A stretch of 21,406 nucleotides of DNA. Source: a virus. Below the pieces are notes generated by a model, which had not been told where the DNA came from, searched no databases, and saw nothing but the letters and a program-made list of their open reading frames with translations. How positions within the stretch are numbered: the first letter of the stretch is position 1; each line of letters starts with the position of its first letter. The position numbers were made by a program, and so were the translations under genes. The stretch covers positions 1-21,406 of the IMG/VR virus record IMGVR_UViG_3300040801_005951. One strand, written 5' to 3'. Below, piece by piece: positions 1,062 to 19,572 of this stretch.

Positions 1062-1102
1062 TTTGAGTCTCCTATCAATAAGTTTTTTTTAATAAATTAT
1101 TC

Positions 1103-1143
1103 TTTATGCTTATCTCTTACCAATAGTAAGAAATAAGCATAAA
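1103..1143. repeat. 18-position inverted repeat (operator or hairpin)
   Basis: The arms 1103-1120 and 1126-1143 pair over 18 positions with one mismatch (C1114/A1132) around the 5-nt centre CAATA. No T-run follows in either direction, so it does not look like a rho-independent terminator. The inner part, TCTTACCAATAGTAAGA (1115-1131), recurs with one change in the divergent promoter region at 9936-9952. A protein-binding operator is therefore more likely than an RNA-only structure. Confidence 0.6.
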
Positions 1144-1166
1144 AGAATGTGTTTCAGAGCTGTCAA
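1138..1166 (-). promoter_or_regulatory. Putative sigma70-type promoter for the 1-1061 gene
   Basis: On the minus strand TTGACA (1166-1161) is a perfect -35. It is followed after 16 nt by TTTTAT (1144-1139) or after 17 nt by TTTATG (1143-1138). It lies in the 139-nt gap upstream of the structural gene at 1061. The -35 is strong and the -10 is weak, and the -10 overlaps the outer end of the palindrome at 1103-1143. Inference from sequence only. Confidence 0.4.
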
Positions 1167-1200: not shown

Positions 1201-1767
1201 TTAAAACTTATGCCACGCCTGTTTGTTTGCGTGCATATGATAAAGGTATAGACCGGGAAGGATGTGGGCTTGATAGCCTTTTTTGATGAGGTCATTGTGG
1301 TAGTAGGTGTCGGGTGCACGGGAATCAAAACCGCCGACGTCTTCCCATGCTTTACGGTGAGTGAGAATCATAAAACCTGAAAGAACCGTAGGGTTATTAA
1401 ATAGAATCGTTGTGTCACCGAATTGTTCATAAGTTTTTTTTGCATGTCGCATATGATCCATAATGTCGTGGTTCTGGGGGGCATCGAAATCCATTTGAGT
1501 GGGGCTGCGGGTGGCATTAGCAGAAGTGCGCCCGGTAATCCAGCCTGTCCTATGTCCCAGTTTCCTGGCAGCTCGGCAGCACATCCGATACCAGTGCGGA
1601 TTGACCATTAAAATATCGTGATCGAATATCAAGCACCAATCTTCAATATTACGCATAATACTGTCATATGCTTCGGCAACATTGTTATCCAGACGCCAAG
1701 GGATAATGACCGGAATATCTTTGTCGCCAGTTTGAACCGGTGTGATCGGAGGAATTCGTGATGGCAT
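1201..1767 (-). CDS. Small GT2-like glycosyltransferase
   Basis: The 188-residue protein looks like a compact GT-A fold (family 2-like) glycosyltransferase. DHD at residues 49-51 is the candidate metal/nucleotide-binding DxD. The later GFMILTHRKAWEDVGGFD segment is the typical acceptor-side motif of GT2 enzymes (an aromatic/Gly run followed by 'W…GGFD'), and HNDLIKKGYQ follows. The first beta-alpha unit of ordinary GT2 enzymes is short, so the protein is smaller than usual (GT2 domains are about 220-250 residues). I chose ATG 1767 because it lies 1 nt after the upstream methyltransferase stop and has an AAGG about 10 nt upstream. An in-frame start at 1818 has no ribosome site. It is the last glycan gene before the structural gene. 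Sugar donor and acceptor cannot be told. Confidence 0.7.
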   Translation of the reverse strand: MPSRIPPITPVQTGDKDIPVIIPWRLDNNVAEAYDSIMRNIEDWCLIFDHDILMVNPHWYRMCCRAARKLGHRTGWITGRTSANATRSPTQMDFDAPQNHDIMDHMRHAKKTYEQFGDTTILFNNPTVLSGFMILTHRKAWEDVGGFDSRAPDTYYHNDLIKKGYQAHILPGLYLYHMHANKQAWHKF

Positions 1768-1768
1768 T

Positions 1769-2419
1769 TTACCAGCCTTTGTCTGATTGCTTGGCAAGCT
1801 GAAAAAAACCATTGCCATATTTGTATTTATGCCAGTTGTCCTTGAAACCGCGCACTCGATAAGAAAATTTTTCTACCTCCATGCGGGCACAGTCGAATTT
1901 GGCTTTCCACCATGCTTCATTTCGCCGGATCATATGCGTAAGGTCTTTTTCGTACTCTCTGATACGATATCTGCTTTGATCTCCAAACGGCACAATGACA
2001 AACATACGAGTACACAGATGTCGTAATTCGTTTAACACGTTCTGTATCTGGTTTTCATTGATATGCTCAAGAGTGTCTTTGATAAAAATAACATCCACTC
2101 GCGGAAGTTGATTATCGGGTGTATAAATAAAGGGCATGACTTCCTGTGGAGCCTTTGACACAGCATAGCGAGAAACTTCAAATCCATAAGCTTCGACATT
2201 GAGAAGCCGCAGCGCATGCACCAAAAATCCTTTAGCGCATCCAAAATCCAGAATAGATTGGTTTGGATACATAATTTTGAGTTCGCATGCCATGGGAAAA
2301 GATAGTTCCGGTTTCCATTCGTAGTTCTGATATAAGCTGACACCTGTTTTTGTGCCGTTTTCAAAGTAGGTTTCATCAAATGCATCGTCCCATTCAAACG
2401 AAGTTTTAAGCGAATTCAT
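1769..2419 (-). CDS. Class I SAM-dependent methyltransferase
   Basis: The 216-residue protein has a clear Rossmann methyltransferase core. Motif I, LDFGCAKGF, is at residues 57-65 (SAM-binding glycine loop). An acidic residue (E81) ends the second strand in GFEVSRYA, and motif IV/post-motif, DVIFIKDTLEHI, is near 109-120. This arrangement is typical of the Methyltransf_11/23 families that methylate small molecules or sugars in glycan clusters. No DNA-methylase signature (DPPY/NPPY) is present. The start overlaps the 3' end of the radical SAM gene by 14 nt, and the stop lies 1 nt before the following GT2-like gene, so the three are probably translationally coupled. The substrate is unknown. 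A methylated sugar is the natural guess from context. Confidence 0.85.
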   Translation of the reverse strand: MNSLKTSFEWDDAFDETYFENGTKTGVSLYQNYEWKPELSFPMACELKIMYPNQSILDFGCAKGFLVHALRLLNVEAYGFEVSRYAVSKAPQEVMPFIYTPDNQLPRVDVIFIKDTLEHINENQIQNVLNELRHLCTRMFVIVPFGDQSRYRIREYEKDLTHMIRRNEAWWKAKFDCARMEVEKFSYRVRGFKDNWHKYKYGNGFFQLAKQSDKGW

Positions 2420-3380
2420 TGAAATCAGTCCTTGTCATAACATCCTCGATCAGACTTTGTTGTAACGAGTATTTGCAATAAGAACAACTGTGATCAAGAA
2501 TTTTTCGAAAGTTCGGTGCGTTATAGAAAGCATAAATTTCACTGGCATGACAGATAGCAAATTTTTCATTGATGCTTTTGTTGTTTTCCATGGCCAGTTC
2601 TGCACTGGGGCAAGGATATACGTGACCGTCAGTGTATAGCGCAGGCTTAAGCATGTGGATATAACAATTCGAATTGCGGCGGGTTAAAGTGGTGTTGAAA
2701 TCAGATAGGAAAAGATAGGGACATTTGTATTTTTTTTCTCGTAAAAAGGTGCGTATGGTTTCCATTTCAGCTTCGATGTCACTTAGCGATTGGATGCAAT
2801 CTGGGCTGAGACGGCATGTTGCTTTATAAGTATTGATGAAGTCAGTGACTATATCCATGCGTGTGGCTGAGTGCTTGTTCCAAATATAGCAAAAACTGAA
2901 GTGCGTACCCGATCCGGTCAAAAGATTCATGGCGGTTCTAAGGGCCGTGGGCGGCTTGTAATCTAAAGTATTGAGCGATACCCTAACCCATGCCAATCGT
3001 GGCAGCAAATATGATATGCGGTCCAAGCTGAGGCCATTTGTAATCAAGCCGATTTTTAAATTTAATGACAAGAAATATTCCAGACACTTCTGAATGTGCG
3101 GGTATAATGTCGGTTCCCCTCCACCCGTTAGCTCGATGGCCCTCGTCCCCAGCATCCAGTATTGCGTCACACCCAACATGTAGAGATACGGATCGATATC
3201 AAGCTGGAAGTCCTGACGGTTTTTAAAACAGCAATGTTCACAGCTTAGCTGGCAGCGGTGGGTGGGCATGGTGTGCAGCATGATGGGTGCCGGCACATAG
3301 CCGTTTTGAATGGCTTTTAGTTTATCAAGGTGCTTGAGCAGTTTTACCGTATTTGAAGTGTGACTAAGAGACTCATTCAT
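2406..3380 (-). CDS. Radical SAM enzyme
   Basis: Cys43, Cys47 and Cys50 form the CX3CX2C motif (RCQLSCEHCC), which binds the 4Fe-4S cluster that cleaves SAM. GGGEPTLYP near residues 86-94 is the SAM-contacting 'GGE' motif, and ITNGLSLD follows. The C-terminal part holds further cysteines (YPCPSAE, then HSCSYCKYS), suggesting an auxiliary cluster (SPASM/Twitch-like). This class includes peptide- and sugar-modifying enzymes. I prefer ATG 3380, which overlaps the upstream acyltransferase stop by 8 nt and has AAAGGA upstream, though the spacing (13 nt) is long. The frame stays open to 3446, so a longer N-terminus is possible. It sits between an acyltransferase and a methyltransferase in the glycan run. 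The reaction is not predictable. Confidence 0.85.
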   Translation of the reverse strand: MNESLSHTSNTVKLLKHLDKLKAIQNGYVPAPIMLHTMPTHRCQLSCEHCCFKNRQDFQLDIDPYLYMLGVTQYWMLGTRAIELTGGGEPTLYPHIQKCLEYFLSLNLKIGLITNGLSLDRISYLLPRLAWVRVSLNTLDYKPPTALRTAMNLLTGSGTHFSFCYIWNKHSATRMDIVTDFINTYKATCRLSPDCIQSLSDIEAEMETIRTFLREKKYKCPYLFLSDFNTTLTRRNSNCYIHMLKPALYTDGHVYPCPSAELAMENNKSINEKFAICHASEIYAFYNAPNFRKILDHSCSYCKYSLQQSLIEDVMTRTDFNEFA

Positions 3381-3741
3381 ATTTTGGGTTAATTCCTTTA
3401 AAGCGTGCCGGATTGCCATACCAAATTTCTCCAGGCGGAATATCACAAGTCACAACAGAGCCCGCACCAATAATGGCATGTGCGCCGATCGACAAGCCAG
3501 GTAGAATGGTTGTGTTGGCTCCGATGCTGGCGTATTCACCGACGACAGTAGGGTCTTCTTTTTTCCATGCACCGTTTGAAGGTGGATATTTATCATTTGT
3601 AAAACAAACGTGCGGACCGATAAATACGTTATCGAAAATAAAGACATTGTCGGGGATAAAAGCAAAAGGTTGGATTTTGCAATTCTTGCCGATGACAGCA
3701 TTTGAGCCGATAAAGATTAATGCTTGGTATCGATTTTTCAT
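3373..3741 (-). CDS. Hexapeptide-repeat acyltransferase (WlbB/WbpD-like)
   Basis: The 122-residue protein is a left-handed beta-helix acyltransferase. Imperfect [LIV]-G-x4 hexapeptide repeats run through most of it (IGSNAVIGKNCKIQP…, VGEYASIGANTTILPG…), ending in the typical EIWYGNPARF cap. The insertion GPHVCFTNDKYPPS is the kind of loop seen in WlbB/WbpD-type N-acetyltransferases, which use acetyl-CoA to acetylate the 3-amino group of UDP-2-acetamido-3-amino-glucuronate. That match fits the WlbA-like dehydrogenase and aminotransferase encoded at 14316-16960. It overlaps the preceding acyltransferase gene by 4 nt. It is shorter than most WlbB proteins (about 160-190 residues), so the pathway assignment is an inference. 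The family assignment is firm. Confidence 0.8.
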   Translation of the reverse strand: MKNRYQALIFIGSNAVIGKNCKIQPFAFIPDNVFIFDNVFIGPHVCFTNDKYPPSNGAWKKEDPTVVGEYASIGANTTILPGLSIGAHAIIGAGSVVTCDIPPGEIWYGNPARFKGINPKYE

Positions 3742-4301
3742 AGAATTTCATCGATAGGCACATCGCCTTGATAAATTGCTGGATTGCCATACCAGATTTG
3801 GCGTGGCGGGACGTTTTTGGTAACATTGGAATGAATACCGATCAGCGCGTTTTCACCAATTTCAATGCCAGGTTTAAGCGAAACGCAAATAGCGATTCGA
3901 ACGGCTCGTCTGATAGTATATCCTTGCAATTTCAGTTCATAATTTCTTCCGTGAACAATTCGTGCTGTGTTGGCACCACAAAAAAATGGCGCAATAAAAA
4001 CGTCATCTTCGATAAGGACGTCTTTGGTTATGTGGCATTGCGCATGGATAAGCGTGCGGTTACCAATTTTGCAGTCCCCTTCGAAGACAGTCAGGTGCCC
4101 AATTGTGCAATTGTTTCCGATAATGGTGCGGGGGCGAAGCACTGTGTGATGGCCAATAAAGACATTGTCACCAACAACGCAGTCTTTTTCAATAACAACG
4201 CCATGGCCGACTTTAACATTTTGGCCAATTTTGGCGCTATGATGAATGGGGTGGGAATCGCCGATAATGTGCTTAACTTTTTCATCGTAGATGTTTGTCA
4301 C
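3738..4301 (-). CDS. Second hexapeptide-repeat acyltransferase, GTG start
   Basis: The 187-residue left-handed beta-helix protein has about ten hexapeptide turns (IGQNVKVGHGVVIEKDCVVG…, IGNNCTIGHLTVFEGDCKIG…). A loop insertion (FFCGANTARIVHGRNYELKL) follows, and it ends with the RQIWYGNPAIY cap shared with its neighbour. Such proteins transfer acetyl or other acyl groups to sugars. GTG at 4301 is the best start: it overlaps the upstream GT2 stop (GTGA) and has AGGGGG 5-6 nt upstream. The frame extends to a TTG at 4331, but that has no such site. With the next gene it makes a tandem pair of different acyltransferases, suggesting two acylated positions or two sugars. The specific substrate is unknown. 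Confidence 0.8.
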   Translation of the reverse strand: MTNIYDEKVKHIIGDSHPIHHSAKIGQNVKVGHGVVIEKDCVVGDNVFIGHHTVLRPRTIIGNNCTIGHLTVFEGDCKIGNRTLIHAQCHITKDVLIEDDVFIAPFFCGANTARIVHGRNYELKLQGYTIRRAVRIAICVSLKPGIEIGENALIGIHSNVTKNVPPRQIWYGNPAIYQGDVPIDEIL

Positions 4302-5044
4302 GAAAGCCCCCTTTTGCGCATGTCCTGCCAAATTATGTCAAAGGCTTTTGCCCGTTGTTCCTGCGATCTTTTTTGACTGACTTGTCCGAAATGCTGGCGA
4401 TAAAAATAAGTTGATGGCATTTGCGCACCAATATAACCGCTAAGGCAAAGTTTTAACCAAAAATGATAATCGTAGATATCGTAATCCTCATATCCACCGA
4501 CATCTTCATAGGCTTTGCGGCAAAGAATAGAACTGCCGTTTAGAAAGTTATTGTGCACTTTGAGCTGGGCCAAGCTATTATTGTCCCAATCTTTCATGAT
4601 GAATGTTTGCATTTTTTCAAAAACAGGCATCTTGTTCTTTTCAAAACTAGATGCAAAGTAAACAACTTTTTCAGGATAGCTCACACCGAGCATGGGATTG
4701 TCATGGCTGTTAAATGTTTCCAAAGCACTTTCAATATAATTGGCGGATACATGATCGTCAGAAGCAACAGAGAAAACTAAATCATAATCTGCTAAATATG
4801 ACATGCCGATTTTGAGTACAGCACCAACACCGCTTTGCTTTTCAACCGTATGAACTTCAAGGTTGAGTTCGGGATGTTTGTCGGCAAAGAGACGGACAAC
4901 ATCGGCTGACCGATCGGTAGAGGCATCATCAATAACAATTACCCGATCCGGTTTATGGGTTTGTGCAAGAAGTGAACGCAATGAATATATAATCAGATCC
5001 GCACGATTATGGACTGGGATTGTGCAACCGACTGTTTTTTTCAT
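4298..5044 (-). CDS. Family 2 glycosyltransferase
   Basis: The 248-residue protein is a complete GT-A domain. The start VGCTIPVHNRADLIIYSLRS is the classic GT2 nucleotide-binding opening. DD at 39-40 (VIVIDDASTD) binds the uridine, and SDD at 95-97 is the DxD-like metal site. LNGSSILCRKAYEDVGGYED is the acceptor-side segment. There is no transmembrane segment, so it is a soluble enzyme. ATG 5044 shares one base with the upstream TAA stop, so it is almost certainly translated by coupling from the GT4 gene. The 3' end overlaps the acyltransferase start by 4 nt. It is expected to add one sugar from a nucleotide-sugar donor. Donor and acceptor are unknown. Confidence 0.88.
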   Translation of the reverse strand: MKKTVGCTIPVHNRADLIIYSLRSLLAQTHKPDRVIVIDDASTDRSADVVRLFADKHPELNLEVHTVEKQSGVGAVLKIGMSYLADYDLVFSVASDDHVSANYIESALETFNSHDNPMLGVSYPEKVVYFASSFEKNKMPVFEKMQTFIMKDWDNNSLAQLKVHNNFLNGSSILCRKAYEDVGGYEDYDIYDYHFWLKLCLSGYIGAQMPSTYFYRQHFGQVSQKRSQEQRAKAFDIIWQDMRKRGLS

Positions 5045-5979
5045 TAAGATGCCGATAGATACTGAAAAAGGTTATTGATTTTTTTGAGTTTATCTATTTG
5101 GTTAAATCGGTGTTTGATGTATTGACGATATGAAAATGAGTCATATGTGGACTCTGGATCAACCATTGCGTTTAAATCATCAAAAGATGTCCATATCATT
5201 TCGGGTGCATAGACATGAGTGGCTCCCCAAAAATTATGAACCAGAGGTTTCATCCCGGTAGCCATGGCTTCACATAATGAAAGGTTCTGACTTTCCCAGG
5301 GTGAAGTACAAAGCATATAATTTTTGTCAGCCAAAAAATTAGGTATTTGATTGTGTTCCATTTTGCCGTAAAAATAAACCCGATCCCGCATCTCAAAAGC
5401 ATCGAGCATGTGCGCGAAATAAACCCGCTCGCGCTCATCCTGCCACTCACCAACAATATGTAGCCTAAAGTTATCGGGCAAAGATTGGAAAGCGTGCGCC
5501 ATAAGCATGATGCCCTTTTTGGCGGACAAGAGCCCGGAAACAGCAATGTCACATCCGTGTTGCTTCGAACCGACAAATTGGAATTTATCAAGATCGATGC
5601 CGTTTTCGATTACAATCTGATGAGGATGATCAATGTTGCAATATTTTCGAATATGATCTGAGACGAAAACAATCGTATCCACAACTGTCCAGTTGATCTG
5701 CTCGTGCATTTGAGCCAAGGCTTCGTACGAATGTAGCCGGACAATGACCTTTTTACGGCCCAGCAATTCAGCGCGGTGCAGGGTCAAGTTAACCGGAATG
5801 TCATTGGCCCATTCAAACCAAACAATATCAGAGTCCATGATCTTTTGATCGATTCCTTGCATGTTGGTCATGTAATACTTGTTAACCTTGAAACCGTTTT
5901 TGGCGCTTTGTTCTAATTGATTTGCAATAGGGTCAATAAAAGTTTCGAGCCCTTTGATGCAAAAAAATCCGACTTTCAT
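5044..5979 (-). CDS. GT4-type (GT-B fold) glycosyltransferase
   Basis: The 311-residue protein is a GT-B enzyme of the glycosyl-transferase group 1 type. The linker IVIENGIDLDKF lies near residues 122-133, and GLLSAKKGIMLMAHAF (149-164) is the donor-domain opening. E229 and E237 in ESQNLSLCEAMATG form the EX7E motif that holds the nucleotide-sugar. The N-terminal acceptor domain is compact, so the protein is slightly shorter than typical (350-400 residues). ATG 5979 is preferred over the adjacent GTG 5982 because AGGAG sits 6 nt upstream. It follows the GT2/TPR-like gene by 11 nt. It is likely a retaining transferase acting in the cytoplasm. Sugar identity is not visible. Confidence 0.85.
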   Translation of the reverse strand: MKVGFFCIKGLETFIDPIANQLEQSAKNGFKVNKYYMTNMQGIDQKIMDSDIVWFEWANDIPVNLTLHRAELLGRKKVIVRLHSYEALAQMHEQINWTVVDTIVFVSDHIRKYCNIDHPHQIVIENGIDLDKFQFVGSKQHGCDIAVSGLLSAKKGIMLMAHAFQSLPDNFRLHIVGEWQDERERVYFAHMLDAFEMRDRVYFYGKMEHNQIPNFLADKNYMLCTSPWESQNLSLCEAMATGMKPLVHNFWGATHVYAPEMIWTSFDDLNAMVDPESTYDSFSYRQYIKHRFNQIDKLKKINNLFQYLSAS

Positions 5980-5990
5980 CACGCTCTCCT

Positions 5991-7241
5991 TTAAATAGCC
6001 GGCAATTCGAGGTGCTGGCGCACAGGGAATTGCATTTGTTGTGGCGGTGGTTGTTGAACGGCATTTTGCACTTGGTTTTGCGGGTTTGGCGGTTTGACTT
6101 CAGCGCCGCCGATATCGACCAGTTGTGCTTGATTCATAATGTTTTGAAGTTTCATTAAAATTTCAGTGCGGTTTTTTTCATTCAATGCGGGAATCGTGCC
6201 CTTAAGTTTCCTGAGCATGACAACGCCGTTTTCGATTAGTCCGGTTGTAGCATAGAAAAGCGCTGAGGCCAGTGCGTTGGCATTGTAATTAAAAAAGAAA
6301 CGGCCTGGATGATCAAAGCGGTACTTGTCAAAATTTTCATAACAGTAAGTGAATCGTTGCGATGCCGCGACCAGTGTAGTGCGGTCTTCGTTTCTGATTG
6401 ACCATTGAATCAAATCCATCAAAAGATCAATATCGAGAGGATCGTCTTTAAGCCCCTGATCAATCCATGAGCGGCAATCTTTCTCGAGACCTTTTTTACC
6501 ACAAATGGCCGCATTGAGGTGATAAATTGAAGGGTTGAACTCTTTGCCGGCCGCCGCTTTCATTTTAACGTATCTTTTACCCCACAAAAGCGCGTTGTCC
6601 TCATCCTGTAAAAATGCCCCGTAAGCCTGAGCGATATAAAAAACGGATTCGTAGTCTTCGGGATTTTCCTCGATGCACTCTTTAAGCAAACCGATTGTTC
6701 GTTCGGCTTTAGCTTGATTTTGCGCAGGGCTTAGATCGTATCCGTGGTGACGGATGAACGCACCTTTCATAAGCGCCGAATCGCCTTCGATAACCGGGGT
6801 GTTGTGAACTTTGCGTCGCCATTTGACCTTGTCGCGCCTGAAAATTCTAAGCGAATCAAGGCGAGCAGCTACATTCCCGCGGGACGCCCGAAAATCTTCA
6901 ACCTCCATGCCGACCGAATTGATGTTTGACTCGGCATTGCCTAACAGTTCAACCAGGCGCTTGGTTGTCATTGGTGGTTGAAAAATTAATTCTTCATCAG
7001 CGTCGATAACAAAAATCCAATCCTGTGTGCAGAGACCGAAAGAATGATTACGATGCCAACCAAAGTCATTGCGCCACGGTTCGTGATAAATTTTATCGGT
7101 ATATTCTTTGGCGATTTCTACGGTTTTATCTGTTGATCCCGTATCAACAATGACGATTTCTTGGACAAAACTTTTAATCGACTCCAAACAACGCCTTAAA
7201 TTGCTTTCTTCGTTTTTGACCATCATGGCAGCAGAGATCAC
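5991..7241 (-). CDS. GT2 glycosyltransferase with helical C-terminal region
   Basis: Residues 1-100 are a GT2 domain of the WaaE-like type: SAAMMVKNEESNLRRCLES, EIVIVDTGSTDKT, EPWRNDFGWHRNHS and VIDADEE with DxD at 80-82. A long helical region with TPR-like character follows (about 165-370), which may be a protein-protein or acceptor-binding arm. The tail (about 380-416) is rich in Pro and Gln. GTG 7241 is the start: AGGAG lies 9 nt upstream, and the next Met codons would cut into the conserved first strand. It starts 3 nt after the preceding small protein gene. TPR-fused GT2 enzymes often modify proteins or peptides, which fits possible glycosylation of a virion protein, but that is inference. 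Confidence 0.85.
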   Translation of the reverse strand: MISAAMMVKNEESNLRRCLESIKSFVQEIVIVDTGSTDKTVEIAKEYTDKIYHEPWRNDFGWHRNHSFGLCTQDWIFVIDADEELIFQPPMTTKRLVELLGNAESNINSVGMEVEDFRASRGNVAARLDSLRIFRRDKVKWRRKVHNTPVIEGDSALMKGAFIRHHGYDLSPAQNQAKAERTIGLLKECIEENPEDYESVFYIAQAYGAFLQDEDNALLWGKRYVKMKAAAGKEFNPSIYHLNAAICGKKGLEKDCRSWIDQGLKDDPLDIDLLMDLIQWSIRNEDRTTLVAASQRFTYCYENFDKYRFDHPGRFFFNYNANALASALFYATTGLIENGVVMLRKLKGTIPALNEKNRTEILMKLQNIMNQAQLVDIGGAEVKPPNPQNQVQNAVQQPPPQQMQFPVRQHLELPAI

Positions 7242-7244
7242 AGT

Positions 7245-7841
7245 TTATTTCTCCTTTTGGGATTTAATTTTTTTTTCGATTTCGTCCAGTTCGGCTAATA
7301 ATTCTTCTTTGGTTTGAGGTGTGACGGGCTCAGACTCAGGGTCGGTTTGTGCGCTTACCTTTTCGCTCGTGTTTTCCTTAACAGGCTCTTTAACTTTGGA
7401 TTCAAGTTCGGCAAATTGTTCTTCTTCTTTGGCAATATCGCCTTTGACGTATTCCAATACCTCAGTTACCATGCGATCTTTGCCTGTTTTTGCCGTAAAT
7501 TTTACATCAAGCCGTGACTCTGCAAAAAGTTGTAGTTCGTTTTTACGAAGCTGTGAAATTTTTTTTCGCAGGGCTTCCAGACTGCCTGCGCCGTAATAAG
7601 TGCCGACATCATATCCAAATGTATCCAAATAAGTGGTGTCGATTTTATCTTCTTTGGCTTTTTCTTTTTCGTAAAGAAGATAGCGGCCAGATTTAATGCC
7701 TGGTTTGACATGACTTTCCGGAACAGAGGCCACTAGCGATCCATCTTTTTGAACAATAAAATCATAACCCCACATTTGTACTCGGTATCCACGGGGGTAC
7801 CCTTTATATTTTCTTGGTAGCATTACTTTTATTTCAGCCAT
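7245..7841 (-). CDS. Hypothetical acidic/coiled-coil phage protein
   Basis: I do not recognise this 198-residue protein. The N-terminal third (MAEIKVMLPRKYKGYPRGY…) looks like a small beta domain. The middle has LEALRKKISQLRKNELQLF, a helical stretch. The last 70 residues are Glu/Lys-rich and predicted coiled-coil or disordered (KEELLAELDEIEKKIKSQ). ATG 7841 is chosen because AGGAG is 5 nt upstream. The open frame extends back to 7910, but that would run through the terminator-like hairpin. It follows the major capsid gene, a place where head-completion or capsid accessory proteins are common, so a virion role is possible but unproven. Confidence 0.65.
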   Translation of the reverse strand: MAEIKVMLPRKYKGYPRGYRVQMWGYDFIVQKDGSLVASVPESHVKPGIKSGRYLLYEKEKAKEDKIDTTYLDTFGYDVGTYYGAGSLEALRKKISQLRKNELQLFAESRLDVKFTAKTGKDRMVTEVLEYVKGDIAKEEEQFAELESKVKEPVKENTSEKVSAQTDPESEPVTPQTKEELLAELDEIEKKIKSQKEK

Positions 7842-7854
7842 AACCTCTCCTTTT

Positions 7855-7897
7855 AAAAACAAAGAGCCATCCCATTGAAATTCAGGATGGCCCTTTG
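7855..7897 (-). terminator. Terminator-like hairpin after the capsid gene
   Basis: On the minus strand, arms 7897-7885 and 7872-7860 pair over 13 positions with one mismatch around a 12-nt loop, followed directly by TTTTT (7859-7855). It lies between the major capsid stop (7943) and the next ribosome site, so it would cut or reduce transcription from the capsid gene into the glycan genes. Such partial terminators after phage capsid genes are well known. Confidence 0.7.
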
Positions 7898-7942
7898 TCG
7901 GTTGCGCCAAGTTAATGGCTTTTTATCTGAGCGTCAAATATC

Positions 7943-8884
7943 TTAGTCAGATATATCTGTCAAGCGTGCAAGACCTTTGCGGTTAAAAATGGCGAGGTTG
8001 GCGTATTGCTTGACACGCCAAATTTCCTCGTCTTTTTGTTCCATGTAGCCAACCGGATGGACTTTGAGTCCGGCAGGAACCGCAATTGGATGAATAGCGG
8101 CTAAGCCAATTTTTTGAGAACCGTCATCCCAAACCCCTGCCCAGACTGACTTGAGAGTTCCGCCAGTTAAAGCTGCGCCAGTCGGAGTTTCCGTGGTAGA
8201 CAGAAAATCATTTTTGAAAACCGGGATGTCCTCAAACTTATAAACAGTCCGAGAGGTTCCATCGGGCATAACCAGTACATCAGATGGCATGGTACCGCCA
8301 AGGCCACGATACAGTGCCTTGAGTTTGCGGAGTGTAGAGGGAGCCATCATGATCCAATCGGCCTCACCGTCTTTAGATTTGACGAGATCAAGCACTTCAT
8401 CCATCAAATCAAAGGTTAATGAGCGGGTGGAACCAGATGCGTATTGAGTAGCGTCGCACAAACTGTGCAAAGAATTCATTTGTGGAGCTGTTCCGGAACC
8501 TCGCGCCATGCCTCTTTGAAACAAACGGCCGACCTCTTTGGCTTTAAGGCTGAGTTCCAGAGTGAGCTGATCGACACCACCACCAACGGATTCGGCTTGT
8601 ACCAGACCGTCCATTTCCGCGTCACCGATGATCTTGATTGCCGTGAATGTTTTGCGGGTAAAAGTAGCCGCTGCTTTTGCCGCTGCGGTAATGGTTCCTG
8701 CAACTGCAAAATGGCCAGCTCCACCGAGGGTCAATTCACGGTTTACGATGATACCTTGACCTTGATAACCGATAAAGGGCAAAAAGCTAAACATGGGGTT
8801 AATATTGATAATGTCTTCAGCTACGCCAGAAACGATTTCATCGTTAATGAGCAATGCGGCCTGGGCCAAAGTCTGTGTTGCCAT
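7943..8884 (-). CDS. Major capsid protein (HK97-fold type)
   Basis: The 313-residue protein has the pattern of HK97-fold major capsid proteins. An N-terminal helix (ATQTLAQAALLINDEIVSGV) is followed by a hydrophobic ENIIxxNPMF-like segment, a 'RELTLGG' extended-loop region and a long spine helix. A central domain contains WIMMAPSTLRKLKAL, and a C-terminal part contains IWRVKQYANLAIFNRKGLARL. The same features occur in capsid proteins annotated in many uncultured phages. The start has a GGAGG site just upstream. It follows the scaffold gene (stop at 8925) with a 40-nt gap, the normal scaffold-capsid order, and a terminator-like hairpin follows. Size (about 34 kDa) is in the usual range. Confidence 0.88.
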   Translation of the reverse strand: MATQTLAQAALLINDEIVSGVAEDIININPMFSFLPFIGYQGQGIIVNRELTLGGAGHFAVAGTITAAAKAAATFTRKTFTAIKIIGDAEMDGLVQAESVGGGVDQLTLELSLKAKEVGRLFQRGMARGSGTAPQMNSLHSLCDATQYASGSTRSLTFDLMDEVLDLVKSKDGEADWIMMAPSTLRKLKALYRGLGGTMPSDVLVMPDGTSRTVYKFEDIPVFKNDFLSTTETPTGAALTGGTLKSVWAGVWDDGSQKIGLAAIHPIAVPAGLKVHPVGYMEQKDEEIWRVKQYANLAIFNRKGLARLTDISD

Positions 8885-8924
8885 TTTTTACCTCCGTGTG
8901 TTGGCGTGGCCTGAAGACGTTATT

Positions 8925-9746
8925 TTATTGACCATACTGGTTATAATATTTCTTCAGACCAGCTTTAATTTTTTCTTTTCCAGTTACGCCAGGACCTGCA
9001 TTGGTTCCGCCCTCTAAATTGCCGGCGACACCAGGCCCTCGTCGTGCCGGGGCTCTAAATATATCATGGTGTTCAGCGTCTTGCTGGACAATCAGTTCGA
9101 CAGCTTCGTTGAAAGATGCGGGTTCTCCGTGGTTTTTTTTGGAGAGCAATGTTTTTCCGGTTTTTGGATCGACGGCATATACCTTGAGTTTTTTGTTTTC
9201 GCCAATATCGACTTTGAAACTATCCCCATAAATTTTGGCAGCATGTTCTGGTTTATAAAATGTTTTGGGTTTGTCGCCAGAAAAATATGGGTGGTTGGCG
9301 AACTGGTTGTTGACTGCTTGATCGTAGACAATACCCTCAAGGTTGGATATGGTCTTTTCGAAGGTTTCTTTTTCTGTGAGCCAAGCGTCTTCTTTGGCTT
9401 TGTGTTCTTCGTTTAAAGATGTAGCGACCTCCTCAGTCCATTGTTTTTGGTACCGTTCCAAACCGTGTTCATCGACAAGCTTTTGACCCTCAAGCTTTTT
9501 GACGGTTGCAGCGTATTCTCTGGCTTGCTTTGGTGTCAGTCTGCCAAACTCTTTTAATTTTTCCTCGATTGCTTTTTTGTCGTTGTAGTGCCGGTCCTTT
9601 TCATCAACCAGGTTGGCAATTTTGTTTTCAAAGTTTGCGACTGTTTGAGCTGCATCGAATGGCTGTTCCGTTCCATCTTCGTATTCGTAGACAGGCATCC
9701 CGTCCTGTACTACAACATAACCTTCTGAATCGAGCTTGAGTTTCAT
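8925..9746 (-). CDS. Capsid scaffolding protein
   Basis: The 273-residue protein begins MKLKLDSEGYVVVQDGMPVY. A long charged helical/coiled-coil section follows (about 35-140, rich in Lys and Glu), then a compact part around NQFANHPYFSGDKP. The flexible Gly/Pro tail (RRGPGVAGNLEGGTNAGPGV) ends in a basic patch, KEKIKAGLKKYYNQYGQ. This architecture, with a helical body and a short basic C-terminal hook directly upstream of the capsid gene, is typical of phage scaffolding proteins that guide procapsid assembly. It is the first gene of the minus-strand run, so the control region to its right probably drives it. The function rests on architecture and position. Confidence 0.8.
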   Translation of the reverse strand: MKLKLDSEGYVVVQDGMPVYEYEDGTEQPFDAAQTVANFENKIANLVDEKDRHYNDKKAIEEKLKEFGRLTPKQAREYAATVKKLEGQKLVDEHGLERYQKQWTEEVATSLNEEHKAKEDAWLTEKETFEKTISNLEGIVYDQAVNNQFANHPYFSGDKPKTFYKPEHAAKIYGDSFKVDIGENKKLKVYAVDPKTGKTLLSKKNHGEPASFNEAVELIVQQDAEHHDIFRAPARRGPGVAGNLEGGTNAGPGVTGKEKIKAGLKKYYNQYGQ

Positions 9747-12814: not shown

Positions 12815-14347
12815 ATGGCTGAATTTAGAACAAAAGATGAAATGTACGCTAAATCAGATATTTACAAAACCCATGAGGTTGAGTGGCAAACATCTGATTT
12901 AATTTATAAGAGTGGCAAAGAATTGATTGAGGCCTCGCTTTACAAACATCCGCTTGAAACCCCGGAAAACCATCGAGCGCGATTGCGGGATGGTTATGTC
13001 TTTAACTTTGCCAAATCAATTATCAATATTTTCAATTTTTATTTGAACGAAAAAGAAGCAGTCAGAGATTTGTCCAGTATTGAAGATGATCCAGCTTGGA
13101 GAATGTTTACCAAAGATACGAATCTTTACGGAACTGATTACAATGTTTTTTGGAATGAATCGCAAAAATTTGCTTCAGCCATGGGAGCCCTTGGCATACT
13201 GGTCAATAAACCAGGAGATTATTCTGGCGGTGAAATCGTCGACATGGCGCTTGGCGATGAAATTAAGGATGGTATTTATCCGTATTATGCACCGTATTCA
13301 TTGCTTAATATTCTTGATTGGGAATGGCAGCGCGACTCACGCACACATCGGCGTTATCTGATTTATCTCAAATTACTTGAACCTGATAATAGTGTTACCG
13401 CATGGACGCCAGATTCGTGGGAACGTTGGCGCTTGATGCCTAAAACAAACTTGCCTGAAAGATTCGAATACGGCAGCAATGACTTGGGAGAGATTCCGTT
13501 TGTATGGCTAAAAAACATGACCAATATGATTACTCCAGAAATTGGCGACAGCGATATCAAAGATATTTCCCCTATTGTGATGACCATTGCACAAAACCTT
13601 AGTTGCGGCGAAGAAATGATGAAACTAGCCGGGTTTCCTATTAGAAGGCAGCCCATGGAAGGCCAGGACGATTTGCTTCAACTTGAAGACGACGATGACA
13701 AAGAAATACCAACAGGACCACGGTCGATTGAACAATTCAATCCGGAATTTGGCCAAGCTGGAAAACCGGATTGGATGCCAACCGAGGTGCTTGACCCGAT
13801 TGAAGCGGCATTAAAATGGATTGATCGCAAAATAGACGAAATTTATCGTATTGCACATTTGTCTGGAATTCACGCTCAGCGGCGCTCGAATAACAAAATC
13901 GCCAGCGGGTTGTCGATTCGCTATGAATTCTCACAGCTCAATGCGGTATTAAGCGCTAAGGCTAAAAATTTGTCCGAAGCGGAATTGAATTGTTTAAGAC
14001 TTTGGTTAAAATGGCAAAACAAAGAAGATTTATTCAAACAGATCGAAATCAAGCGGAGCAAAGAATTTTCAATTGATGAGATGGCTATTGCGCTGGACAA
14101 TGGAATCACATCAATGCGGAACGTGGCCAGCAAAACTTTCCGAGTTAACATGCAAACGAAAATAGCCATGTCAGCCCTGCCGGACATGACGCAAAAAGAT
14201 CGCCAGACAATTGTAGAAGAAATTAAAAGTAATACACCCGATAAGGTTGAAGTTGATTATGACCCCAAGAGCCCAACTGGAAGCAGCCATATTGTAAGAG
14301 ACGCAAAGGAAGCCTATGCCGACCACTCAAATGATCCCGTCCTGTAA
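12815..14347 (+). CDS. Portal protein
   Basis: The 510-residue protein has the size and position of a phage portal, the dodecameric ring at the head vertex through which DNA enters. The N-terminal helices contain an early tyrosine/acidic-rich section (WQTSDLIYKSGKELIEASLY). A helix-rich stem follows, with a KWIDRKIDEIYRIAHLSGIH segment and a QLNAVLSAKAKNLSEAELNCL helix, then a polar C-terminal tail. This pattern is like the DUF4055-type portals seen in uncultured phages. A GGAGG site lies 9 nt upstream and the start abuts the stop of the extended small basic protein. The 3' end overlaps the WlbA-like gene by 32 nt, so sugar genes are co-translated with a head gene. No alternative family fits better. 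Confidence 0.82.
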   Translation: MAEFRTKDEMYAKSDIYKTHEVEWQTSDLIYKSGKELIEASLYKHPLETPENHRARLRDGYVFNFAKSIINIFNFYLNEKEAVRDLSSIEDDPAWRMFTKDTNLYGTDYNVFWNESQKFASAMGALGILVNKPGDYSGGEIVDMALGDEIKDGIYPYYAPYSLLNILDWEWQRDSRTHRRYLIYLKLLEPDNSVTAWTPDSWERWRLMPKTNLPERFEYGSNDLGEIPFVWLKNMTNMITPEIGDSDIKDISPIVMTIAQNLSCGEEMMKLAGFPIRRQPMEGQDDLLQLEDDDDKEIPTGPRSIEQFNPEFGQAGKPDWMPTEVLDPIEAALKWIDRKIDEIYRIAHLSGIHAQRRSNNKIASGLSIRYEFSQLNAVLSAKAKNLSEAELNCLRLWLKWQNKEDLFKQIEIKRSKEFSIDEMAIALDNGITSMRNVASKTFRVNMQTKIAMSALPDMTQKDRQTIVEEIKSNTPDKVEVDYDPKSPTGSSHIVRDAKEAYADHSNDPVL

Positions 14348-15254
14348 TAACTTTATCTTGATTGGCGCGGCAGGTTATGTCGCGCCAAAACATTTAAAAG
14401 CGATCCAATATGTTGGCGGGAATTTGTTGGCTGCCTTTGATCCGCATGATTCGGTTGGTGTATTGGATTCATATTTCCCGCGAACCAAGTTTTTCACACG
14501 GCTCAATCCATTGGAACGTTATGTCGAACGGCTTTCGGTTAAAGGCATCAAAGTTGACTATGTGTCGATATGCAGCCCGAATTATTTGCATGACCAACAT
14601 TGTCGATTTGCATTACGCATTGGAGCCGAAGCGATATGTGAAAAACCATTAACACTTAATACTAGAAACTTGATGTTGCTTGCGAGACAGGAGCGGCGCT
14701 ATAAAAGCAAAATTAATGTTATTTTGCAGTTACGCTTAGGAGCCAAGGTTGAAGCCCTCAAAGAGCTGGCCGAAACAAATGGGCAAAAACGTCATCGCGT
14801 TTATGTTAGCTATGTAACTCCACGCGGCCCCTGGTATTATCGAAGCTGGAAAGGTGATGTCGTAAAAAGTGGCGGGCTGGCAACCAACATCGGTATCCAT
14901 ATTTTTGATTTGCTGGCTTATCTTTATGGTCCGATGGAAGATATCAATATCGAAAGAAAAACAAAAGATTTGGTGGCAGGTATCTTGAAACTTAAATCCG
15001 CTGATGTCGATTTTATGCTTTCGACCAGGCAAGATATAAAACCCGAACGAGCGATTGTGATCGATAATGAAAGTTTTAATTTGTCAGATGGATTTACTGA
15101 GATGCACAATAAAATGTATGAACGCATTATAGCGAACAAAGGCTTTGGTATTAAAGACGTCATAGAGGCAACTAGAATTGTAGAAAAAATTAGAAAGACG
15201 GATGCAATGACATCGCGCACCCGCGAAGGGGGTTTTGATGGCTTTAAGATTTGA
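14316..15254 (+). CDS. wlbA: Gfo/Idh/MocA oxidoreductase, WlbA/WbpB-like
   Basis: The 312-residue protein closely resembles UDP-N-acetylglucosaminuronate 3-dehydrogenase. The Rossmann opening FILIGAAGYVAPKHLKAI (residues 13-30) has the glycine-rich NAD loop. SICSPNYLHDQH is followed by AICEKPL with catalytic-type K110. VTPRGPWYYRSWKGDVVKSGG and TNIGIHIFDLL with H195 are family signatures. The enzyme oxidises C3 of UDP-GlcNAcA to the 3-keto sugar, using NAD+ regenerated with 2-oxoglutarate in known members. ATG 14316 has AAGGA 5 nt upstream and overlaps the portal gene. Its natural partner, the aminotransferase, lies one gene downstream. The UDP-GlcNAc 6-dehydrogenase that makes the substrate is not in this window. 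The symbol reflects family resemblance. Confidence 0.85.
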   Translation: MPTTQMIPSCNNFILIGAAGYVAPKHLKAIQYVGGNLLAAFDPHDSVGVLDSYFPRTKFFTRLNPLERYVERLSVKGIKVDYVSICSPNYLHDQHCRFALRIGAEAICEKPLTLNTRNLMLLARQERRYKSKINVILQLRLGAKVEALKELAETNGQKRHRVYVSYVTPRGPWYYRSWKGDVVKSGGLATNIGIHIFDLLAYLYGPMEDINIERKTKDLVAGILKLKSADVDFMLSTRQDIKPERAIVIDNESFNLSDGFTEMHNKMYERIIANKGFGIKDVIEATRIVEKIRKTDAMTSRTREGGFDGFKI

Positions 15255-15825
15255 TAACCATTGTTTTTATCATATTAAAAAAACTGGTGGCAATTGGGTC
15301 AGAGAAATTTTGACTCGAATAACAGATGACACAGAAGACATTAGTTTGAAACATATTGACCCGTTGTCGATCGATCCAAAAAATGAGCGTTTTTCAAAAA
15401 CCTTCTGTGTTGTTAGAAACCCGTTAGATTGGTATGCAAGTTTTTATCGTATGAAAAAAACCAATGGGATTATTTACCCAAATGGCCCAGATCATTTGAT
15501 TGAAGGACGTAGCTTTGAAGAATGGGTTAAAGAAATGATTTATGTTTACCCGTGTGGTTTTGTGAAATTAACCTATTGTACCATTTTTCCGTTTGTTGAA
15601 AAGGTATTCAAACAAGAATCCTTAAGACAAGATTTGCCGCCATTTTTGGAGCGGTTGGGTTATAAAGAAGTTTATAAAATAGCGAACGGGATGCCTAATG
15701 TAAATGTAACACCCCGTACAATTGACACCACATTATCAAAAGAGACCCTTGCAAAACTCTGCAATACTGAAAGAGCCATGTTTGACCATTTTGGATACGA
15801 CCGTAGCTTTGCCGAAAAAATATAA
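15238..15825 (+). CDS. Sulfotransferase-like protein
   Basis: The 195-residue protein shows both PAPS-binding motifs of sulfotransferases. A 5'-phosphosulfate loop, YHIKKTGGNW (residues 11-20), comes right after the first strand. The 3'-phosphate motif FCVVRNPLDWYASFYR (57-70) has Arg60 and Ser68. It would transfer sulfate from PAPS to a hydroxyl, most simply on a sugar. It is shorter than most sulfotransferases (250-300 residues) but keeps the core. I chose ATG 15238 because AAGGGGG lies 5 nt upstream. It overlaps the dehydrogenase gene by 17 nt and is followed after 10 nt by the aminotransferase. Sulfated sugars are rare in phages. A PAPS supply would have to come from the host. Confidence 0.75.
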   Translation: MALRFDNHCFYHIKKTGGNWVREILTRITDDTEDISLKHIDPLSIDPKNERFSKTFCVVRNPLDWYASFYRMKKTNGIIYPNGPDHLIEGRSFEEWVKEMIYVYPCGFVKLTYCTIFPFVEKVFKQESLRQDLPPFLERLGYKEVYKIANGMPNVNVTPRTIDTTLSKETLAKLCNTERAMFDHFGYDRSFAEKI

Positions 15826-15835
15826 AGGAGTAGCT

Positions 15836-16960
15836 ATGATCCAGCTTTTTGTCCCTAAGTTCCGTGTTGACGAAGTTTTAATTAACATCCGTGAATGTCT
15901 TGAAAAGGGCTGGACGGGGCTGGGCTTTAAGACTGTTGAATTCGAAGAAGCGTGGAAAGATTATATTGGTTTACCGCATGCGCATTTTATCAGTTCGAAT
16001 ACAGTTGGGCTGCATTTGGCATTAAGCATGTTTAAAACAAAGCATGGCTGGCGGGACCATGATGAGGTGATCACAACACCGTTGACATTCATATCAACCA
16101 ATCACGCTATTTCATATGTAAACCTTAAGCCGGTCTTTGCCGATGTAGATGAATATTTGTGTTTGAATCCTGAAAGTGTTGAATCACTGATTACACAAAA
16201 AACCCGGGCAATCTTATTTGTCGGTATGGCCGGCAGTATCGGACAATACCATCGTATTGCCGACATTTGCCGTGAGCATAAATTGAAATTAATTCTCGAT
16301 GCGGCGCATATGGCCGGCACTCGCTACAAAGGTCAGCACATCGGTAAAGAAGCGGATGCTGTTGTTTACAGTTTTCAAGCCGTCAAGAATTTGCCGACTG
16401 CTGATTCAGGCATGATTTGTTTTAAAGAAAAAAAAGATGATGAACGGGTACGCAAACTATCTTGGCTCGGGATTGACAAAGATACTTATACACGCACCAA
16501 ACAGGGAGGATCTTATAAGTGGATGTATGAAATTGAAGAGGTTGGTTATAAATACCACGGCAATTCAATTATGGCATCGATAGCTTTGGTGTCATTAAAA
16601 TATTTGGATCAAGACAATGCTTATCGTCGTCAGATTGCCAGGTGGTACCGGGAAAACTTAATATCCTGTAAGAATGTAACTGTGATTCGTGATGTGCCTG
16701 ACAGTGAATCGGCAACCCATTTGTTTCAACTTTTGATCGCAAACAGAGATGCTGTTGTCCTCGCTTTACATGAACATGATATTTTTCCGGGCGTTCATTA
16801 TCGGGACAACACCGAATATCCCATGTATAGATATGCCTATGGAACTTGTCCGTATGCAGCCAAAATAAGCAAAAATATTATTTCATTGCCGTTGCATGTT
16901 AATATGACGAAAAAAGATGTGGACATAATTTCCGCACTTATCTGTAAATATGCCACATGA
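15836..16960 (+). CDS. DegT/DnrJ/EryC1-family sugar aminotransferase
   Basis: The 374-residue PLP enzyme has the family hallmarks. GWTGLGFKTVEFEEAW precedes HFISSNTVGLHLAL (PLP phosphate region), and DEVITTPLTFISTNHAI follows. LILDAAHMAG has D155, which contacts the pyridine nitrogen. YSFQAVKNLPTADSGMI has K184, the Schiff-base lysine. Such enzymes aminate keto-sugar nucleotides. Next to a WlbA-like dehydrogenase, the obvious role is that of WlbC/WbpE: converting the 3-keto sugar to UDP-2-acetamido-3-amino-glucuronate with glutamate as donor. ATG 15836 has AAAGGAG 5 nt upstream. An upstream in-frame extension to 15722 lies within the sulfotransferase gene and is rejected. Its stop overlaps the next gene by 4 nt. 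Confidence 0.88.
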   Translation: MIQLFVPKFRVDEVLINIRECLEKGWTGLGFKTVEFEEAWKDYIGLPHAHFISSNTVGLHLALSMFKTKHGWRDHDEVITTPLTFISTNHAISYVNLKPVFADVDEYLCLNPESVESLITQKTRAILFVGMAGSIGQYHRIADICREHKLKLILDAAHMAGTRYKGQHIGKEADAVVYSFQAVKNLPTADSGMICFKEKKDDERVRKLSWLGIDKDTYTRTKQGGSYKWMYEIEEVGYKYHGNSIMASIALVSLKYLDQDNAYRRQIARWYRENLISCKNVTVIRDVPDSESATHLFQLLIANRDAVVLALHEHDIFPGVHYRDNTEYPMYRYAYGTCPYAAKISKNIISLPLHVNMTKKDVDIISALICKYAT

Positions 16961-17460
16961 AAGCGCAGATCAAACTAAAGCATTATTCTAATAAAAATCT
17001 TTGCCTGCGGATGCTGGCGTTAGAAGATTTGCCTTATACGTTAAGATGGCGCAATTTCCCAGAACACAGGATTTGGTTTCGTAATTCAAATCCCATATCT
17101 TGGAATGATCATTTAAACTGGTTTGAAATTTATTTAAAAAAAAACGATGATTTTGTTTTTATTCTTGAAGATGATGGTAAACGTGTCGGGCAAGCAGCGA
17201 TTTACAATATTTGTCAGCTTAACAAAATAGCCGAAGTCGGCCGTTTTGTGGTTGCACCAAAAGCAGCCAACTTTGGCTATATGAAAAAAGCATGTCAAAT
17301 GATTATTAAGATAGCAGATTTATTTTTTAAATTAAAAACATTGCATCTTGAAGTGCGCAAGAACAATCAAGTGGCCATGCATATTTATGAAAGAAACGGG
17401 TTCAAAGAATATAAAACAGTTGATGATTTTATTTATATGATGTGTTCCTTAAAGAATTGA
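16957..17460 (+). CDS. GNAT-family N-acetyltransferase (PseH-like)
   Basis: The 167-residue protein is a GNAT acetyltransferase. LRMLALEDLPYTLRWRN and the RIWFRNSNPISWNDHLNWF segment resemble PseH-type enzymes that acetylate amino groups of nucleotide sugars. VGRFVVAPKAANFGYMKKAC is the acetyl-CoA pyrophosphate-binding region (motif A), though its Q/RxxGxG/A is degenerate. HLEVRKNNQVAMHIYERNGF is motif B. It is translationally coupled to the aminotransferase (ATGA overlap) and ends the plus-strand operon. It could acetylate the new amino group made by the upstream aminotransferase. The hexapeptide protein at 3373-3741 is an alternative for that step, so the two may work on different sugars. 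Confidence 0.82.
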   Translation: MKAQIKLKHYSNKNLCLRMLALEDLPYTLRWRNFPEHRIWFRNSNPISWNDHLNWFEIYLKKNDDFVFILEDDGKRVGQAAIYNICQLNKIAEVGRFVVAPKAANFGYMKKACQMIIKIADLFFKLKTLHLEVRKNNQVAMHIYERNGFKEYKTVDDFIYMMCSLKN

Positions 17461-17836: not shown

Positions 17837-18583
17837 TTATCCTTTAAGTGGTTGTTTAAGTTGAAGGGGAACCTTGATACCAACCCGGTTCATTTCCTCA
17901 CGAATTCTTATTTCTATGTCTATTGGAACAGGCATGCCTGTTACTTTATCGATAATCTGATTATAAGATGTTATGCCGCACACTCCCAAATATTGCTGAA
18001 ATTTTTGCGATGGAAAATGTTTTGGCATTGTGGTGTGTGAATCATAAAAAACAGTTCGGGGTATGCCATCAGTGATATCTTCCATAACAGATATAAACGG
18101 TGAGTTGGGAGAATGACGATTATCCAAAAAAAAAGTGTCTTCCTCAATGCGCCAAAAAATTCTGTAGAAATCAATCAGACAGGTTTGATTGGCATTTAAA
18201 AAAAGTTGTTGCAAATTTTCTATGGTTGTTGGCCATAAAAAATCATCGTTGTCCATGCGTGAGGTGATAAGCCATTTTGTATTGTATCTTTTATAGCTTT
18301 TTTGCACCCAAGGTTTGTGCATTTCATAGATAATTTGCACTTTGATACCAGGAAGTTTTTCGTATTTGTTGATCAGGCGCATGGGTGTGCGCTCATCAAA
18401 CGACAAAACCCAAATAAAATCTTTAGAACTTTGTGCTTTTATCATGGGAACAACGATTGAATCGAACAACAGTTCCCGATGTGCCATCCATTTTTCAGCA
18501 TCAAACTTAGCGTTGTCATAAATGCTGTCGTTGTTCGCATTGATGTTCCAGGATGTAAGTAATAAATGCGTATAGTCTTTCAT
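17837..18583 (-). CDS. Putative rhamnosyltransferase-like glycosyltransferase
   Basis: The 248-residue protein resembles the putative rhamnosyltransferase family (PF11316 type). VVPMIKAQSSKDFIWVLSFD (about 44-63) is its typical 'Q…F.W.…D' opening. WLITSRMDNDDFLWP (104-118) contains D111-N-D113-D114, the DxD metal site. The later GITSYNQIIDKVTGMPVPID part is like acceptor-side segments in that family. It is a soluble GT-A enzyme. Its ATG overlaps the stop of the exported carbohydrate-binding protein (ATGA), so the two are co-translated, and one could make or decorate what the other binds. Sugar specificity is inferred only from the family name. Confidence 0.75.
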   Translation of the reverse strand: MKDYTHLLLTSWNINANNDSIYDNAKFDAEKWMAHRELLFDSIVVPMIKAQSSKDFIWVLSFDERTPMRLINKYEKLPGIKVQIIYEMHKPWVQKSYKRYNTKWLITSRMDNDDFLWPTTIENLQQLFLNANQTCLIDFYRIFWRIEEDTFFLDNRHSPNSPFISVMEDITDGIPRTVFYDSHTTMPKHFPSQKFQQYLGVCGITSYNQIIDKVTGMPVPIDIEIRIREEMNRVGIKVPLQLKQPLKG

Positions 18584-19488: not shown

Positions 19489-19572
19489 GGCGTTACCTTT
19501 CGTCGTTTTCGCAAATGCCAAAAATATGCAGAAGTCGACAGACAATTTTGCAGAACCCAACACCCCAGAGAC

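Follow-up and report, generated by a model that had tools for sequence, protein, structure and literature searches.

Soluble enzymes that combine a glycosyltransferase (GT) domain with tetratricopeptide repeat (TPR)-like helices are known to act on peptides and proteins. The glycocin S-glycosyltransferases SunS and ThuS (TIGR04195; PDB 7MSN, 7MSP, and 7MSK) join a GT2-type GT-A domain to such helices, and the substrate of SunS is a peptide (PMC8620827). GmaR, a bifunctional flagellin O-GlcNAc transferase of Listeria (PDB 22AO), is likewise a soluble GT and TPR protein. Its GT domain transfers GlcNAc to flagellin, a subunit that self-assembles into a polymer, and flagellin binding has been proposed as the role of its TPR domain (PMC9638930). 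Viral glycosylation of virion proteins is also documented. Glycans on capsid and tail-tube subunits of the mycobacteriophages Che8 and Rita (Freeman et al. 2023) are reported in PMC12619734 and PMC11256854, and GTs of the chlorovirus PBCV-1 that have no endoplasmic reticulum (ER) signal peptide glycosylate the major capsid protein (MCP) Vp54 outside the ER and Golgi (PMC7019647). We analyzed a 21,406-base viral fragment (IMG/VR record IMGVR_UViG_3300040801_005951, positions 1 to 21,406), hereafter the window; all statements on missing genes cover this fragment. It carries a cassette of eight glycan genes at 1201-7241 that begins, beside the capsid block, with a gene for a GT of the SunS/GmaR kind, here called GT2-TPR. 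We estimate a probability of roughly 70% that this cassette acts in the infected cell's cytoplasm to make a glycan and attach it to a virion protein, most likely the MCP, and that the products of the other genes extend or modify that glycan.

The lead glycosyltransferase

The lead gene and the two genes that precede it are as follows.

7943..8884, minus strand: MCP, HK97-type, phrog_212/SU10_MCP (phrog_212 1.2e-37; PF17236 2.8e-5)
7245..7841, minus strand: cap2, the gene between the MCP and the GT (longest open reading frame 7245-7910; better start ATG 7841 with Shine-Dalgarno sequence AGGAGA)
5991..7241, minus strand: GT2-TPR protein glycosyltransferase, SunS/GmaR-like, lead gene (PF00535 6e-20)

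The product of 5991-7241 has 416 amino acids (aa). Its best NCBIfam model was the SunS peptide S-glycosyltransferase (1.6e-27); since the score of 96.4 bits is below the 350-bit equivalog cut-off, the protein is a relative of SunS and not SunS itself. When a profile of six relatives was searched against PDB, the best match was GmaR (4e-42), SunS scored 7.5e-38, and designed TPR proteins matched the second half more weakly. An AlphaFold model based on 40 aligned relatives (mean pLDDT 89.9) has a GT-A domain at residues 1-168, a TPR-like solenoid of helix pairs at 172-371, and a disordered, Pro/Gln-rich tail after residue 377. SunS/ThuS S-glycosyltransferases took the top six places among the Foldseek matches in PDB (E 1e-18 to 1e-19, against 9e-8 for the match after them). 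With VIA-align, three such entries gave Z 24.6-26.4 along residues 1-288, a stretch that takes in the GT-A domain and the initial TPRs, compared to Z 17 over the GT-A part only for the next entry. The best fold match is therefore to enzymes whose acceptor is a peptide. Residues D33, D80, D82, H146, N147, and H165 were invariant in 40 of 40 sequences, with D80-A-D82 forming the DxD motif; because these catalytic-type residues are intact throughout, the enzyme looks active from its sequence.

The genomic setting differs from that of both relatives. Unlike SunS/ThuS, which GT2-TPR matches at 96 against a required 350 bits, the window gene lies in a virion module, and no glycocin precursor peptide or exporter was seen around it, its neighbors being the MCP, cap2, and glycan genes. 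GmaR has 637 aa and a C-terminal antirepressor domain; that domain is not found in the 416-aa window protein, which has the disordered tail instead. The only homologs among cultured phages were yolJ/SunS of SPbeta, Listeria-labeled records that may carry host gmaR, and partial matches.

Linkage to capsid and tail genes

A scan of IMG/VR with the GT2-TPR profile gave 407 loci, of which we took the 80 most similar to the query. Loci with a usable gene fell into 54 clusters at 70% identity, the window included, and neighbors were labeled from gene clusters built from the loci and from PHROGs. The gene was a short way downstream of an MCP gene in 26 of the 54 clusters, in most cases separated from it by a single gene of about 150 aa, and next to tail terminator and/or major tail protein (MTP) genes in 8. 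Four clusters adjoined an unidentified gene and a tube-sized gene in an order that resembles that of contractile tails, a tube/sheath label (our class C) given by position and size only, since the c20 and c31 neighbors present in some loci could not be assigned. Another 4 were downstream of a portal gene (phrog_156), and 12 were elsewhere or unclear, 2 of them adjoining a head-tail adaptor. These fractions are not population estimates, because the set was ranked by query similarity and many contigs are fragmentary. Within the clade that holds the window (support 99/97), 37 of 37 rows belonged to head or tail modules; the distribution of position labels on the GT2-TPR tree takes several changes to explain. 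Phage structural genes were near none of 80 cellular homologs. At one locus (L062, 8624-11212), two tandem GT2-TPR genes follow a single MCP and cement gene.

The linkage was also observed with the capsid gene as the starting point. As bait we used an MCP of another type, which shares only 24% identity with the window MCP, and we counted loci that had at least 750 nucleotides (nt) of downstream sequence. GT2-TPR followed the MCP in 31 of 31 loci at an MCP identity of at least 62%, in 2 of 7 at 55-61%, and in 0 of 32 below 55%. Some of these loci are near-copies or were already in the enzyme-first set, so the result describes a fixed feature of one capsid lineage and not 31 events. For the window-type MCP, both relatives found at 65% identity or more (L002 and L003) carry GT2-TPR, and it is missing from those relatives with flanking sequence whose identity is 63% or lower. 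The capsid and tail-tube proteins reported as glycosylated in mycobacteriophages belong to the same classes that flank GT2-TPR genes. That likeness is one of virion proteins; Maravista, which is related to Che8, has its GT genes near the 3' end of the genome and not beside the capsid gene (PMC11256854). PBCV-1 is a eukaryotic virus, and its glycan is N-linked.

The small gene between the MCP and GT2-TPR varies. In 2 loci (L015 and L042) it encodes a homolog of the Bbp16 capsid cement protein (Pfam 4e-13 and 1.7e-17), and in many others it belongs to a family, c8, that resembles Bbp16 cement (hhalign 92.7%). The c8 form was present in 29 of 29 GT-positive loci. Co-occurrence was considered as a sign that the cement protein is the acceptor and was rejected as not specific, c8 being found in 9 of 29 GT-negative loci as well. 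In the window this position is held by cap2, which consists of a small beta domain, helices, and an S/T-rich tail and keeps its place in L002 and L019-L024; its AF2 model (pLDDT 75, pTM 0.40) has a fold that is not diagnostic. A GT-negative sister phage (L289) has other sugar-type genes after its MCP and cement genes (about 6950-9630), including by eye a KdsC-like phosphatase.

Gene content of the cassette

In the window, the terminase small and large subunit genes and the portal gene are on the plus strand, and the scaffold and MCP genes are on the minus strand. The window MCP is approximately 40% identical to the capsid proteins of several phages in culture, PaMx28 and Stenotrophomonas phage DLP4 among them. 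The scaffold/MCP block and one further gene precede the cassette on the same strand, and GT2-TPR is followed by seven genes.

5044..5982, minus strand: GT4-type glycosyltransferase (PF00534 1.8e-14)
4298..5044, minus strand: GT2 glycosyltransferase (PF00535 7.5e-17)
3738..4331, minus strand: hexapeptide acyltransferase, QdtC-like (PF00132 4.9e-25; QdtC 3fs8 3.7e-20; start probably GTG 4301)
3373..3741, minus strand: hexapeptide acyltransferase, NeuD/PglD-like (PF00132 1.2e-16; TIGR03570 2e-20, below cut-off)
2406..3446, minus strand: radical SAM enzyme with a CxxxCxxC motif (PF04055 2.3e-8; start probably ATG 3380 or 3419)
1769..2419, minus strand: class I methyltransferase, partner of the radical SAM gene (top Pfam match 1.3e-6, slightly short of the cut-off)
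1201..1818, minus strand: small GT-A-type glycosyltransferase, GT_1201 (start probably ATG 1767)
1102..1144, minus strand: 20-pair AT-rich hairpin in the gap after the cassette

Matches in Pfam, NCBIfam, and PHROGs gave 4 GTs, 2 hexapeptide acyltransferases, 1 radical SAM enzyme, and 1 methyltransferase, and with Shine-Dalgarno-supported starts the intergenic gaps were -14 to +11 nt. An earlier, sequence-only reading of this DNA had described exactly such a coupled run of eight genes, and the family matches and packed gaps bear it out. That reading had also placed the run between capsid and tail-type genes. The capsid side of this statement stands; on the other side, the gene at 3-1061 had no family match and no match to a solved structure in PDB, although a relative of it comes after a GT_1201-type GT in L019. 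A 139-nt gap with the hairpin closes the cassette before that gene. Promoter-like and terminator-like sites showed no excess over shuffled sequences in our scan.

No protein of the run had a transmembrane-like segment; the highest 19-residue Kyte-Doolittle mean was 1.65 and fell within a left-handed beta-helix repeat. Neither Wzx, Wzy, nor a polyprenyl-phosphate sugar transferase was found among the proteins examined from this 21.4-kb fragment. Both results agree with what had been read from the sequence. Compared to a Wzx/Wzy-type polysaccharide locus, then, no flippase, polymerase, or polyprenyl-phosphate GT was seen in the fragment, and its GTs, soluble by prediction, are placed with virion genes in a co-directional, packed run after the MCP. 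Outside the run, a gene between terminase and portal (12008-12625, plus strand) has PC and ENP motifs like those of cytosine DNA methyltransferases and no Pfam match.

The genes behind the lead enzyme are modular, with near relatives sharing only the lead GT and GT_1201. GT_1201 itself matched Pfam weakly (0.0088) but matched two PHROG glycosyltransferase families (6.6e-9 and 8.7e-8), and its orthologs adjoin GT2-TPR in L003, L019, and L021-L023. In L015, the MCP and cement genes are followed by a hexapeptide acyltransferase gene (product 50% identical to that of window 3738..4331) and then by a GT2-TPR gene (5162-6703) with a hexapeptide acyltransferase domain fused at its C terminus; this gene order ties the acyltransferases to the lead enzyme. 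L024 has a GT2, an epimerase, and further sugar genes at the position of the cassette. In that locus, a nucleotide-sugar epimerase-like gene (13866-14636, SQD1-like by eye) is seemingly interrupted by an intein.

The radical SAM protein is 35% identical (93% coverage) to a protein of the Synechococcus phage SynMITS9220M01 and 24% identical to one of Pelagibacter phage HTVC008M; the methyltransferase is 39% and 38% identical, respectively, to the neighboring methyltransferases of these phages. The overlapping pair (window 1769-3446) is kept in the same order in both, within sugar clusters, and is probably a mobile glycan-modifying unit shared with two unrelated marine phages. Unlike the window cassette, those clusters contain heptose or carbamoyl genes and, over the stretches inspected, do not adjoin capsid genes. 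No close IMG/VR relatives turned up for the GT4, radical SAM, and sulfotransferase genes, and for the GT4 and sulfotransferase genes the cultured phages yielded no relatives either.

Plus-strand sugar genes

A second set of sugar genes, most of them on the plus strand, lies beyond the capsid block.

14316..15254, plus strand: Gfo/Idh/MocA oxidoreductase (PF01408 5.8e-14)
15235..15825, plus strand: sulfotransferase-like protein (PF00685 0.0071, weak; KKTGGNW and RNPLDWYAS motifs read from the sequence)
15818..16960, plus strand: DegT/DnrJ sugar aminotransferase, ArnB/PseC-like (PF01041 8.7e-84; ArnB 1.7e-47)
16957..17460, plus strand: GNAT N-acetyltransferase, PseH-like (TIGR03585 3.6e-21; 75.9 bits, cut-off 93.1)
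17837..18583, minus strand: rhamnosyltransferase-family GT (PF11316 5.4e-12)

Homologs of the Gfo/Idh gene adjoin GT2-TPR in 5 loci (L042, L043, L052, L075, and L076), which links the plus-strand gene to the same theme. The DegT protein, nearest to ArnB/PseC, and the GNAT protein, near PseH, suggest an N-acetylated amino sugar. Both PAPS-binding motifs can be read in the sulfotransferase-like protein despite its weak Pfam score, and the gene hints at a sulfated glycan. The sequence-only reading had gone further and supposed that the plus-strand genes and the cassette could form a complete phage-encoded glycosylation system. This was not upheld: only the Gfo/Idh, DegT, GNAT, and hexapeptide enzymes are present, and no 4,6-dehydratase, C6-dehydrogenase, or nucleotidyltransferase was found in the fragment, so the precursor sugars must be supplied by the host or by phage genes that were not sequenced. 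The rhamnosyltransferase-family gene overlaps the 3' end of a gene (the pair spanning 17837-19563, minus strand) whose product has a signal-peptide-like segment (29-47) and, by eye, FN3/CBM-like sequence. The two perhaps encode a secreted glycoprotein and its transferase.

Acceptor and alternative explanations

From this arrangement we infer the acceptor, the linkage, the sugar, and the order of the steps. The TPR solenoid would recognize or dock on a folded or nascent virion subunit, most likely the MCP encoded just upstream, and the GT-A domain would take the first sugar from a nucleotide donor and place it on a side chain; this would occur in the cytoplasm, either ahead of assembly or while it proceeds. 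The GT4, GT2, and GT_1201 enzymes could then lengthen the glycan, and the acyltransferases, the radical SAM/methyltransferase pair, and the plus-strand amino-sugar and sulfotransferase genes may modify it or its precursors. The MCP is favored as acceptor because the presence of GT2-TPR follows MCP lineage. Where other clade members lie among tail genes, a tail-tube protein would be the fitting acceptor, a reading with precedent in the capsid and tail-tube glycans reported for mycobacteriophages (as cited in PMC12619734).

Several points weigh against glycosylation of a virion protein by this cassette. The evidence from gene linkage is indirect, and our search for an acceptor site found none. 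The MCP columns that differ between GT-positive and GT-negative phages gave no clear Ser/Thr/Asn/Cys signal, and the few such columns in the other MCP subtype were rejected as a candidate site, being confounded with phylogeny. The same confounding led us to reject a two-residue insert at about MCP residues 66-67, which is present in window-type GT-positive phages and absent in 9 of 9 GT-negative relatives. A small number of gains within clades may account for the MCP-first result, and the enzyme-first relatives were ranked by similarity to the query, with many contigs being fragments. The GT4, sulfotransferase, DegT, and GNAT genes have no conserved tie to the lead enzyme in near relatives. 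Finally, the radical SAM and methyltransferase genes are paired in sugar clusters of the cyanophage type as well, and clusters of this sort have been interpreted as serving capsular polysaccharide modification (PMC7824862).

The last point leads to an alternative in which the cassette remodels a host surface polysaccharide, such as O-antigen or capsule, in infected or lysogenic cells, with the exclusion of superinfecting phages as one conceivable purpose, and is near the capsid genes for the convenience of late expression. DegT, GNAT, hexapeptide, and GT4 enzymes are indeed typical of polysaccharide loci, and the interpreted cyanophage clusters are of a similar kind (PMC7824862). We nevertheless consider host remodeling unlikely, because no Wzx, Wzy, polyprenyl-phosphate GT, or transmembrane protein was seen in the cassette, its lead enzyme falls in the SunS/GmaR group of protein GTs with a TPR domain, and the phage clade is confined to head and tail modules, whereas its cellular relatives are not near such genes. 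The likeness to SunS/ThuS and GmaR, together with the capsid and tail linkage, strongly supports the earlier proposal that the acceptor is a soluble protein, perhaps of the virion, rather than a host polysaccharide.

A protein other than the MCP or MTP might still be the target, either in the host or as a minor virion protein such as cap2/cement or the product of 3-1061. A cement or other small gene lies between the MCP and the GT in most loci, the tail of cap2 is S/T-rich, and 3-1061, which has no assignment, has the relative next to GT_1201 mentioned above. This is improbable in our judgment, however, since the small gene varies by lineage and its c8 form is not restricted to GT-positive loci, and since the position of the same GT clade beside tail terminator/MTP genes points to major polymeric proteins. 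Glycosylation of phage DNA at modified bases, as protection from restriction, is very improbable. Phages of the M6/YuA type have hypermodified thymidine, and their capsids are presumably related to that of the window. The nearest folds to GT2-TPR are nonetheless peptide and protein GTs with a TPR solenoid, the families identified in the window name no base-modification enzyme, and the tracking of MCP identity is not specially predicted by DNA modification. Phage GTs that do glycosylate DNA are known (Pyle et al. 2024, as cited in PMC12619734).

Implications

Virion glycosylation is known, as are enzymes of the SunS/GmaR type; the GT2-TPR phage clade and its linkage appear to be new, and our searches of open-license papers found no description of phage enzymes of this type that form a clade with a fixed place next to capsid or tail genes. 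Phages with a capsid- or tail-linked GT2-TPR gene probably coat their own particles with sugar. We give even odds to the broader proposal that these enzymes are an unrecognized SunS/GmaR-like clade fixed in head and tail modules, each dedicated to the adjoining MCP or tail-tube protein, with swappable glycan genes behind it. If so, the capsid glycan of the window phage would bear amino sugars with acyl groups and might be methylated and sulfated as well. The pairing of enzyme and neighbor also names candidate acceptors, which are open to testing by mass spectrometry. Among phages, glycosylated virions have been demonstrated in a few mycobacteriophages, in which the glycans alter immune recognition; given the dozens of divergent environmental phages with this gene, sugar-coated particles would be common, and the GT2-TPR clade would be a sequence marker for them. 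The clade would also provide a soluble protein-glycosylation toolbox with capsid and tail subunits as natural substrates.

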